From contig NZ_JACJRC010000017.1 of the NCBI RefSeq assembly GCF_014697025.1, positions 1 to 64,000 on the forward strand: DNA of 64,000 nt. The letters run 5' to 3'. The notes under the pieces are model-generated. The model did not search any database. It saw only the letters and a program-made list of their open reading frames with translations, and was not told the DNA's origin. Each line of letters begins with the position of its first letter. The stretch's first letter is position 1. The DNA is from Alkalinema sp. FACHB-956 (lineage in GTDB: Bacteria; Cyanobacteriota; Cyanobacteriia; Leptolyngbyales; Leptolyngbyaceae). Positions 40,062 to 43,210 of this stretch are shown here, in pieces. The position numbers were made by a program, and so were the translations under genes.

Positions 40062-40103
40062 TCGACCGAGTTAATCGACCGAGTTAACAGTACTGCGAAT
40101 TAA
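40062..40103. repeat. 13-bp array at the GH104 stop codon
   Basis: TCGACCGAGTTAA is repeated exactly at 40062-40074 and 40075-40087, followed by a 16-bp relative ending ATTAA at 40088-40103. The last contains the minus-strand stop codon (40100-40102), and TTA recurs in each unit. Confidence 0.88.
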
Positions 40104-41158
40104 CGCCCAGTCGCTTTAACAGTACTGGTCGATCGATCAGCATTGGTAGGCATCTGTGGAGTGCCAATCTGAATCGTGCCAATCTGACCAATCTGAATCG
40201 TGGGTGTGGCGGGCATACTGGCTAAGCTCAATTCCTCCCGCAGCACCCGTTGATACACTTGAGGCAAGCTGGCACTCATGGAATTGGTCTCAATACCATA
40301 GCCGAGACTCGTCCAAGTCGGAGACAGGATTTCTAAGACTTGGGTAATTTTGCCCTGCCGCAACAAACTGGACAAATCGGTGCCCCACGCGGTGGCATCA
40401 CTTAACCAACGGTAGACAACCGCATCTTGGTATAACGGCTCGAAACTATAGCGATGCCATAGCCAAAACCCGCCAGGGTGGGGATGGTAGCGTTCAGCTT
40501 GTTCCAGCCAAGTAGTGGTGATGAACTGATAGCGTCCAGCCGCTGTTGTACATTGCCCAACGTTAGGGCCTACGGCGATCGGCACACAGCGATCGGGATG
40601 ACGGCTGAGGTCTTGGGTATATTCGCCCCCGTAAATCACGGCGTAGGGATTCTGCACATTGGACTCACTGGCCGAGATTGTCCGCATTAGTGCCCGAATA
40701 TATGGATCGCCCCCTTGCATGACCAATGGTGTTTCGGCTCCTTTCCCTAGGGTTCCGCCCCAGGGCATCCGTTGTTCTCGGAGATTGAGCACAATAAAGA
40801 TCAACCACAGAATGATGGTGCAGTGGACGAGAAATTTGCCAAGGGTATAGTCTTTGGAAGGAGTTGCATCGGCCATACTGACATCAGCTTTGAACAGTAA
40901 AGTACGTCGCAAGAGGCTACCGGGCAGGAGTGGCAGCAGATTTAGGGTAGGCACCAGCCTGAGCCGAGATGGCCGCAGAGCTGGGCTGGCTTGAGCAGTT
41001 GGTTGGCTTCGGACGTGCGATCGCACCTGGCCCTTAAGCTTGCCTTGAAGGATGGTCAACAACCTGTTTTTCGCCGTTATTCCAGCCTCGATCTGAGCCA
41101 CCATCCATGACGGAGGCATCGATCGCCGTCGGGAACTTCGGGGACGGTGCTTGGGCAT
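40100..41158 (-). CDS. Membrane-anchored GH104-like muramidase
   Basis: A 352-residue protein with a basic N-terminal cytosolic segment of about 105 residues, one membrane helix (about 107-124, FLVHCTIILWLIFIVLNL) and a lysozyme-like domain at about 140-310. The proposed catalytic glutamate is in MRTISASESNVQNPYAVIYG, followed by GRYQFITTTWLEQAERY, as in phage-related GH104 muramidases. It would cut glycan strands of peptidoglycan from the periplasmic side. No phage genes are near, and the anchor is unlike a phage lysozyme, so a cellular wall-remodelling role is favoured. Start ATG at 41158. Confidence 0.82.
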   Translation of the reverse strand: MPKHRPRSSRRRSMPPSWMVAQIEAGITAKNRLLTILQGKLKGQVRSHVRSQPTAQASPALRPSRLRLVPTLNLLPLLPGSLLRRTLLFKADVSMADATPSKDYTLGKFLVHCTIILWLIFIVLNLREQRMPWGGTLGKGAETPLVMQGGDPYIRALMRTISASESNVQNPYAVIYGGEYTQDLSRHPDRCVPIAVGPNVGQCTTAAGRYQFITTTWLEQAERYHPHPGGFWLWHRYSFEPLYQDAVVYRWLSDATAWGTDLSSLLRQGKITQVLEILSPTWTSLGYGIETNSMSASLPQVYQRVLREELSLASMPATPTIQIGQIGTIQIGTPQMPTNADRSTSTVKATGR

Positions 41159-41196
41159 TGTACTCCAGTTTAACCAGAAGGAACGATGGGTTCGAT

Positions 41197-41324
41197 GCGA
41201 CCTGAAGGCAATTCAATCTGTAAGCAATGCAATTTGCAAGCAATGCAACTTGAAAGCAATCCAACTTGCAACCAATCCAACCTGAAACTAATACAATCTG
41301 TGACAACTTTAACCTGTGACAACT
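41197..41324. repeat. Eight-unit 16-bp degenerate tandem array
   Basis: Eight units of exactly 16 bp run from 41197 to 41324 without indels, for example TCAATCTGTAAGCAAT, GCAATTTGCAAGCAAT, GCAACTTGAAAGCAAT and CCAACTTGCAACCAAT. It occupies most of the spacer between the ABC gene and the GH104 gene. Further weak copies continue to about 41345. Confidence 0.92.
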
Positions 41325-41396
41325 GTAATCCACTGTAATCCGCCACAGATTAACTACACCAGGGCAACTGTACAAGCAACCTGTTGCAAACTCCAG

Positions 41397-43046
41397 CTAT
41401 GCACAATTCATTTGCAGCATGGGAGCAGCGGCGAGTAGTGTTTGGGTGTAAGAATGCTGCGGATTATCGAATACAGCGGAAGTTTGGTCAAGTTCAACGA
41501 TTTTTCCTTGATACATAACCGCAATCCGATCGCAGAAAAACCGCGCGACCCAAAGATCATGGGTAATGAATAGGTAAGTTAACTCAAACTCGTCCTTGAG
41601 TTCCTGCATCAGTTCCAGCACTTGGGTGCGTACCGTGGCATCCAACATACTGACGGGTTCATCACAAATGACCAGCTTGGGTCGGGTAATCAACGCCCGC
41701 GCGATCGCCACCCGCTGCTGTTGGCCTCCCGAGAGTTCCCCTGGATAGCGATCGTAAAATTCCTTAGGATGCAAGCCGACCCGCTGTAGCATGGCTTCTA
41801 CTTGGGGTTTTGCGGTTTGGGGAGTAGCCATTTGATGGATCAACAAGGGATCGGCAATGCTATCCCCGATCGTCATCCGAGGATTTAAACAAGCATGGGG
41901 ATCTTGGAAAATCATTTGAATATCTCGCCGTTGCCGCAGCATAGCCTGACGCTTCAGGGGAGCCAAATCCTGGCCTAAAAATTCGACTTGTCCCGCAGTA
42001 GGCTTGAGCAGTTGCAAAATTGTGCGGGACAGCGTGGATTTGCCGCACCCCGACTCACCCACTAGCCCCAAGGTTTCCCCTGGATAGAGGTCCAAATCGA
42101 TGCCGTCCACTGCGCGAATCGTGCGATCGTTGGCTTTGGAAAAGACCTTGGCCAGAAAATTAGCTTCCAGGGTGTAGTACTGTTTTAAGCTCCGTAGACG
42201 TAATAGGGGGGATGGTGATATAGCAGACTCAGTCGATCCAGCAGGCTCAGCAGCAGGATTGTGGTTGCCTTGGAGGTAGAGCGCTGACTGCAACAGGGAT
42301 TTGGTGTAGTCGTGCTGCGGATTTTGAAATACTTCGGGAGTGGCTCCCCACTCGACCAAGTGGCCGTCGTACATGACGGCAATGCGATCGCAATATTCAC
42401 CCACCAGAGCCAAATCATGGGAAATCAGAATTAACGCCATATTGCGGTCTTCGCAGAGACGTTTGAGTTCCTGCAAAATTTGGGCTGCAACCGTGACATC
42501 CAAGCTGGTTGTCGGTTCATCGGCGATGATTAACTTGGGATTCAACAGCAGTGCTAGGGCGATCGCCACCCGTTGCCGCATTCCCCCACTGAATTCATGG
42601 GGATACTGCGACCAGCGCTCGGCTGGAATTTTGACCGCTTGCAAGACTTCTAGGGCACGGGCTTTGGCTTCTTTTGTGGAAATCTCAGGACGGTGGGCTT
42701 GGAGGGTTTCTAGGCAATGCTCGCCGATCGTCAACAATGGATTCAATCGCGTCATTGGATCCTGGAAAATGAGCGCAATTTCCTCCCCCCGGAACCGTTG
42801 CAGTTGACGATCGGAGAGTTGGTATAGATTTTGACCTGCAAATTGAATTTGACCTTCCACGATCGCCGCATCGGAGAGCAACCGCACAATAGCCCGCCCG
42901 ATCGTGGATTTGCCACACCCCGACTCGCCCACCAAGCCTAACCGTTCCCCCGGTTGTAGAACGAGCGAAACATCATCCACAACCCAAGGTGCATGAGAAC
43001 TGTAGGCAATCTTGAGGTGATCGATCGTGAGCAATGCTTCAACCAT
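41397..43046 (-). CDS. Dipeptide/oligopeptide-type ABC transporter with two fused ATPase domains
   Basis: The 549-residue protein contains two nucleotide-binding domains, each with Walker [10 protein letters not shown] (about residues 40-48 and 328-336), signature motifs ([12 protein letters not shown] and [12 protein letters not shown]) and Walker B ([12 protein letters not shown] and [12 protein letters not shown]). Both halves resemble DppD/DppF-type ATPases that power uptake of peptides, nickel or related solutes. Permease and binding-protein genes are absent from the window, as is common in cyanobacteria. The ATG at 43046 is the preferred start; upstream the frame runs through a 15-bp repeat array. 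Confidence 0.92.
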
Positions 43047-43084
43047 AGGAAAGGGAAGATTAAGGGAGAGCAAGGTAATGAGTG

Positions 43085-43144
43085 CACTTTTACTGGTAGC
43101 ACTTTTACTGGTAGCACCTTCACTAGGGACAATGCTGCTAGGGA
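43085..43144. repeat. 15-bp tandem array, four units
   Basis: CACTTTTACTGGTAG is repeated exactly at 43085-43099 and 43100-43114, then diverged units follow at 43115-43129 and 43130-43144. It lies directly upstream of the ABC gene start. Confidence 0.88.
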
Positions 43145-43210
43145 TGCTGCTAACGATAATGTCATCAATACAATCTTGCAGCAATCTTACCCTGAGTTTG
43201 ATGGTGCTCG

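Follow-up and report, generated by a model that had tools for sequence, protein, structure and literature searches.

A diverged 16-bp tandem array between an ABC ATPase gene and a lysozyme-like gene of Alkalinema sp. FACHB-956, a probable lineage-specific minisatellite in an array-rich genome

The tandem array at positions 41197 to 41324 of the window (the whole 64,000-nucleotide stretch of DNA analysed here) is very probably a lineage-specific intergenic minisatellite, which was duplicated in tandem, has since been decaying by substitution, and is, by extrapolation, one of about a thousand arrays in this genome. As the preliminary description had stated, and as the self-match scan confirmed, the array consists of eight 16-bp units in perfect register without a single indel despite their divergence. 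The majority consensus is GCAACCTGAAAGCAAT, with no strand assigned. Thirty of its 128 bases depart from that consensus, units 1 to 8 match it at 14, 13, 13, 15, 12, 13, 9 and 9 of 16 positions, respectively, and five columns of the unit (4, 7, 8, 14 and 16) are invariant. When self-matches over 112 positions were compared at all lags from 8 to 60 across the whole window, lag 16 gave the highest value, 88 of 112 at 41200 (87 of 112 from 41197), and the array score was 53.5 in comparison to a best score of 10.0 in 200 single-base shuffles of the spacer. The array thus has the properties that define a minisatellite, namely head-to-tail units of about 10 to 60 bp repeated far above chance. TRF split it into 41200-41287 and 41298-41328, both with a period of 16 and 0% indels, probably because units 7 and 8 have a common set of changes. 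A separate 10-bp tandem duplication, two copies of ACTGTAATCC at 41322 to 41341 (TRF, 100% match, period 10, no strand), touches the array end.

The genes on either side are both on the minus strand: a double ABC ATPase of the Opp/Dpp peptide-transporter type (41397 to 43184, with a provisional start codon), identified from the ORF list, Pfam and NCBIfam, and a lysozyme-like gene of the phage lambda type (40100 to 41158), assigned by homology. The lysozyme-like protein showed weak similarity to the phage lambda lysozyme 1am7 (E 7.5e-4, residues 169-288) and matched the phrog_90 endolysin with E 7.9e-12, with no Pfam match at E 0.001 and no NCBIfam match at 0.01. From the ABC stop to the nominal lysozyme-like start codon at 41158 there are 238 bases, of which the array takes up 128, so that the earlier statement that it fills the spacer between an ABC ATPase gene and a muramidase gene is right as to location and wrong as to the filling. 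Where the lysozyme-like gene starts is uncertain, as homology begins at residues 85 to 138 in 15 of the 16 relatives that share the gene pair; the conserved part runs from about residue 95, which is a Met in this frame, at 40876. One relative, L032, matches from residue 62 and has, in a 15-base block (AAACTGGAGTACAAT), an ATG that is in frame and in the corresponding position, and the N-terminal part of the protein alone scored 47 in comparison to a shuffle mean of 28.8 (P 0.004); given this match and the ATG, the longer start at 41158 may be genuine. The block is common to L032 (2 differences), L033 and L034 (1 each) and, in the alignments with these relatives, contains a promoter-like TACAAT (41157 to 41162, minus strand) that shares bases with the nominal start codon; the array lies upstream of TACAAT, with its closer edge 34 bp away. 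We regard this block as a putative promoter; a promoter consensus scan did not list it, and for 40800-41500 the scan gave two other sites (0.5 expected), neither of which adjoins the array.

Read-through along the minus strand would transcribe the array, which could then be a terminator, an attenuator or a structured leader between the two genes. This is very unlikely, as no excess of RNA folding was found on either strand (z -0.15 and 0.05), terminator-like sites numbered 0 with 0.7 expected by chance, and the relatives lack the element. The notion that the array encodes a repeated part of a longer protein is harder still to credit. A 113-aa minus-strand frame (41034-41375) does cross it, and the frame of the lysozyme-like gene extends without a stop through unit 1 to about 41212, but in the latter no start codon lies upstream of 41158, homology starts far inside the protein in nearly all relatives as given above, and a period of 16 is not divisible by 3, unlike the periods of 50 of the 52 coding arrays sampled in this genome.

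The preliminary description had proposed selection for spacing, for instance through an array of bound proteins, with relatives expected to keep the period while the sequence changed, and it had named the absence of the array from relatives as the outcome that would speak against this. The gene pair was counted only if the ABC match lay upstream of the lysozyme match, on the same strand and within 3000 bases of it, which gave 16 relatives from genomes outside the focal genus (13 other genomes and 8 of 47 loci, with 5 common to both sets); L004, L006, L007, L011 and L012 were omitted from the spacer list, as they have the same places and distances as L032-L034, L036 and L037. None of these 16 relatives carries a 16-bp array in the orthologous spacer, which is the adverse outcome that the preliminary description had named, and the spacer DNA itself matches only one of the 42 genomes of the order, which is its own. 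The distances from the ABC stop to the lysozyme match range from 23 to 803 bases among the relatives, and the 476-base "spacer" of L037 is mostly ABC gene, the ABC match ending there at a frame break. A conserved, iteron-like protein-binding array, with position and period kept among relatives, was thus found in 0 of 16. With spacers of such different lengths, and with 16 bp being just one among many periods in this genome (24 of the 133 non-coding arrays sampled), the proposal of spacing selection through a protein array was not borne out.

Other periodicities do occur in these spacers. That of Myxacorys almedinensis (L036) has its own 15-bp array of about five TTTAACCACGAATTG-like units at spacer positions 172-245 (score 44, shuffle maximum 11.5), which is unrelated in sequence to the focal array and lies nearer the lysozyme start. 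Slight excesses over 200 shuffles were observed for L034 (13.5 in comparison to 11.5, period 12), L032 (10.5 in comparison to 10, period 13) and L013 (9.5 in comparison to 8.5, period 11), and the spacers of the remaining 12 of the 16 relatives gave no periodicity score above their 200 shuffles. By eye, the 803-base spacer of L034 also contains a segment with inverted ends (AGGACTTACGCATTGACA and its complement), which looks like a miniature insertion element and is missing from the spacer of L033.

The results on age and growth showed that the mean similarity of units at separations of 1 to 7 was 12.4, 11.2, 10.2, 9.5, 9.7, 8.5 and 7.0 of 16, respectively. This neighbour gradient, with r = 0.68 and P = 0.0018 among all 40,320 possible orders of the units, is what local duplication in minisatellites leads one to expect, that is, neighbours are most alike, and it was never reproduced in 3000 simulations in which eight identical units diverged independently; the units therefore appear to have been added beside each other while mutation continued. 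Among 36 non-coding arrays with at least four full units, neighbours were likewise more alike in 30, with ties in 4 and the reverse in 2. As to the other origin named in the preliminary description, an old expansion in an indel-poor place, the gradient and the company of similar arrays favour the old expansion, but a special rarity of indels at this place has no support, arrays free of indels being common in this genome (462 of 558 TRF arrays with periods of 9 to 40). The indel-free arrays amount to 50 of 78 with at least 3.5 copies and 13 of 21 with at least five, and, among TRF arrays with a match of 85% or less, to 104 of 156 overall, 16 of 37 with at least 3.5 copies and 5 of 12 with at least five. 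That the focal array keeps perfect register is unremarkable, yet not the rule at its age and length, and in an array-rich genome an array that has diverged without indels argues only weakly for spacing selection.

Variation is uneven among the columns of the unit (variance/mean 1.59), with P = 0.004 if mismatches are scattered randomly and P = 0.029 under simulation of growth by duplication, and this may indicate weak constraint on some columns. The neighbour gradient is also steeper than in 99.2% of the growth simulations, which indicates that the growth model is crude. Both the uneven columns and the steep gradient stand against a wholly neutral picture, and both depend on this crude model.

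A BLAST search of the unit in its own genome found one other place, L002 1501-1573 (G000:C19:27202-27274), where a repeat of about five units with a 15-bp period seems, by eye, to follow the reading frame of a gene on the minus strand (Gly-Ser-Asn-Ala-Thr-like). Its unit is about one deletion and one substitution apart from the focal unit, which may reflect kinship or coincidence. No other non-coding array of the focal unit was found by BLAST in this genome, and the single other place, being coding, does not make a dispersed tandem family of the STRR/LTRR/TAACTGA type, in which the same unit stands in tandem at many loci. Single sites like AAGCAATNCAACTTG, a 15-base pattern allowed up to two mismatches, numbered 70 in comparison to 33 for the backward control, with 4 in the focal array, 3 in the C19 coding repeat and 63 elsewhere; this excess may be due to composition or to a weak motif.

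The latter possibility bears on the idea of a lineage-specific regulatory array, in which the units, each with a CAAYYTGNAA-like core, would hold bound protein at intervals of 1.5 turns upstream of the promoter of the lysozyme-like gene. The surplus of sites resembling the unit, the short distance to a promoter-like block common to three relatives, and the five invariant columns with their uneven variation under neutral growth are all consistent with it, but L032, L033 and L034 have the block without such an array, the genome has no second non-coding array of the unit, its only other BLAST place being the 15-bp-period coding repeat, and at least five invariant columns arise in 12.5% of neutral simulations. 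We consider this regulatory reading unlikely.

A minisatellite origin is in keeping with the array load of the genome, which was sampled over the window and 40 stretches of 20 kb (L099-L138) on contigs 1-4 and 17, making 864 kb of 6.16 Mb. The ungapped scan, with periods of 8-40, a fixed score cut-off and a simple ORF mask to define non-coding DNA, is blind to arrays with indels; TRF detects those, yet breaks up some arrays, among them the focal one. The scan found 185 arrays, of which 133 were non-coding and 52 coding, in comparison to none in dinucleotide shuffles of 10 of the 41 stretches. Non-coding periods span 9-40, with 117 of the 133 at 11-19 and 16 the commonest (24 arrays), and the focal array ranks 11th by score among the 185; among the 133 it has the 6th highest score and the 2nd highest copy number. 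Periods divisible by 3 make up 50 of the 52 coding arrays in comparison to 37 of the 133 non-coding ones, and some of the 15-bp coding arrays may belong to pentapeptide-repeat proteins. Arrays were carried by 104 of the 529 gaps of at least 30 bp, at 1.15, 0.79 and 0.64 per kb for convergent, same-direction and divergent gaps, respectively. In this sample of the genome, each kb of non-coding DNA carries about 0.8 short tandem arrays, and by extrapolation the whole genome has about 1,300 arrays, about 950 of them non-coding. The number of array pairs with a common 9-mer was 93 in comparison to 53-75 in five controls, and the corresponding numbers were 42 in comparison to 16-26 for 10-mers, 9 in comparison to 2-7 for 11-mers, and 1 in comparison to 0-2 for 12-mers; the arrays are largely unrelated in sequence, with a slight excess of short common words.

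When the same ungapped method was used on 19 genomes, the load of non-coding arrays with periods of 9-20 was 0.73 per kb in this genome (G000), 0.48 in G057, 0.23 in G052, 0.12 in G019, 0.07 in G015, 0.06 in G021 and zero in the other 13, the samples of the other genomes being small (20-400 kb, with a single 20-kb stretch each for G031 and G053). Of the 18 others, ten belong to the same family and have loads of 0-0.12 per kb, far below that of this genome, and G057, a distant cyanobacterium of another family (L172-L178), has a load similar to that of G000, with 17 non-coding arrays of any period in 25 kb of non-coding DNA. As a tentative possibility, a genome-wide process may seed largely unrelated arrays, with a preference for units of about 11-19 bp, through a replication or repair trait that the sampled family mates lack, and the focal array may be one of its products. 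Repair genes were searched in 16 of the 19 genomes, leaving out G031, G050 and G053. MutS2, SbcD and RecJ were rejected as a cause of the load; all three match in all 16 genomes, MutS2 being above the cut-off in 15 and in pieces below it in G010. G000, G057, G052 and G019, which have the highest loads, all lack the Y-family polymerase domain (PF00817), but so do 6 of the 12 others, so that this is no more than a weak lead. Through comparison of relatives, the contrast in load at the genome level could allow tests of what gives rise to minisatellites, and the array load of this genome is the part which deserves specialist attention. The parts of PMC4666352, PMC5987646, PMC2884548 and PMC4679880 consulted here hold no account of a load of unrelated 11-19-bp arrays, and one may exist elsewhere in print.

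For the focal minisatellite, a 16-bp stretch would have been duplicated in tandem by slippage or unequal exchange, further units would have been added locally while the units mutated, and the array would now be decaying by substitution. Arrays inside genes are filtered by selection on the reading frame, with intergenic DNA tolerating them, and the focal array would be without function. The register would be kept because substitutions outnumber indels and an indel ends the recognisable array. With its units well diverged, the array is likely to be old and may have ceased to vary.

Like bacterial minisatellites or VNTRs, the focal array is lineage-specific and intergenic and has head-to-tail imperfect units in the 10-20 bp range; it differs from them in that its units are well diverged. 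The STRR and LTRR repeats of Nostoc are short tandem repeats in intergenic DNA, with one unit sequence at many loci. According to the portions considered of a survey of long simple sequence repeats of 5-11 nt in bacteria, such repeats are sporadically distributed, heptanucleotides are the most abundant class in most genomes, units in multiples of three are likeliest in coding regions, and arrays of the TAACTGA heptamer also occur in cyanobacteria (PMC4679880). So far as those portions go, the arrays of this genome resemble the 5-11 nt repeats in their sporadic spread and in the coding bias of multiples of three, and differ from them in having mostly 11-19 bp units that are diverged. The TAACTGA arrays, on the same partial account, and the STRR/LTRR repeats are, like the focal array, short tandem repeats in intergenic cyanobacterial DNA, but they place one unit at many loci, whereas the arrays of this genome largely have units of their own. 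Set beside these systems, the focal array itself is ordinary, a diverged, lineage-specific minisatellite in a permissive spacer.
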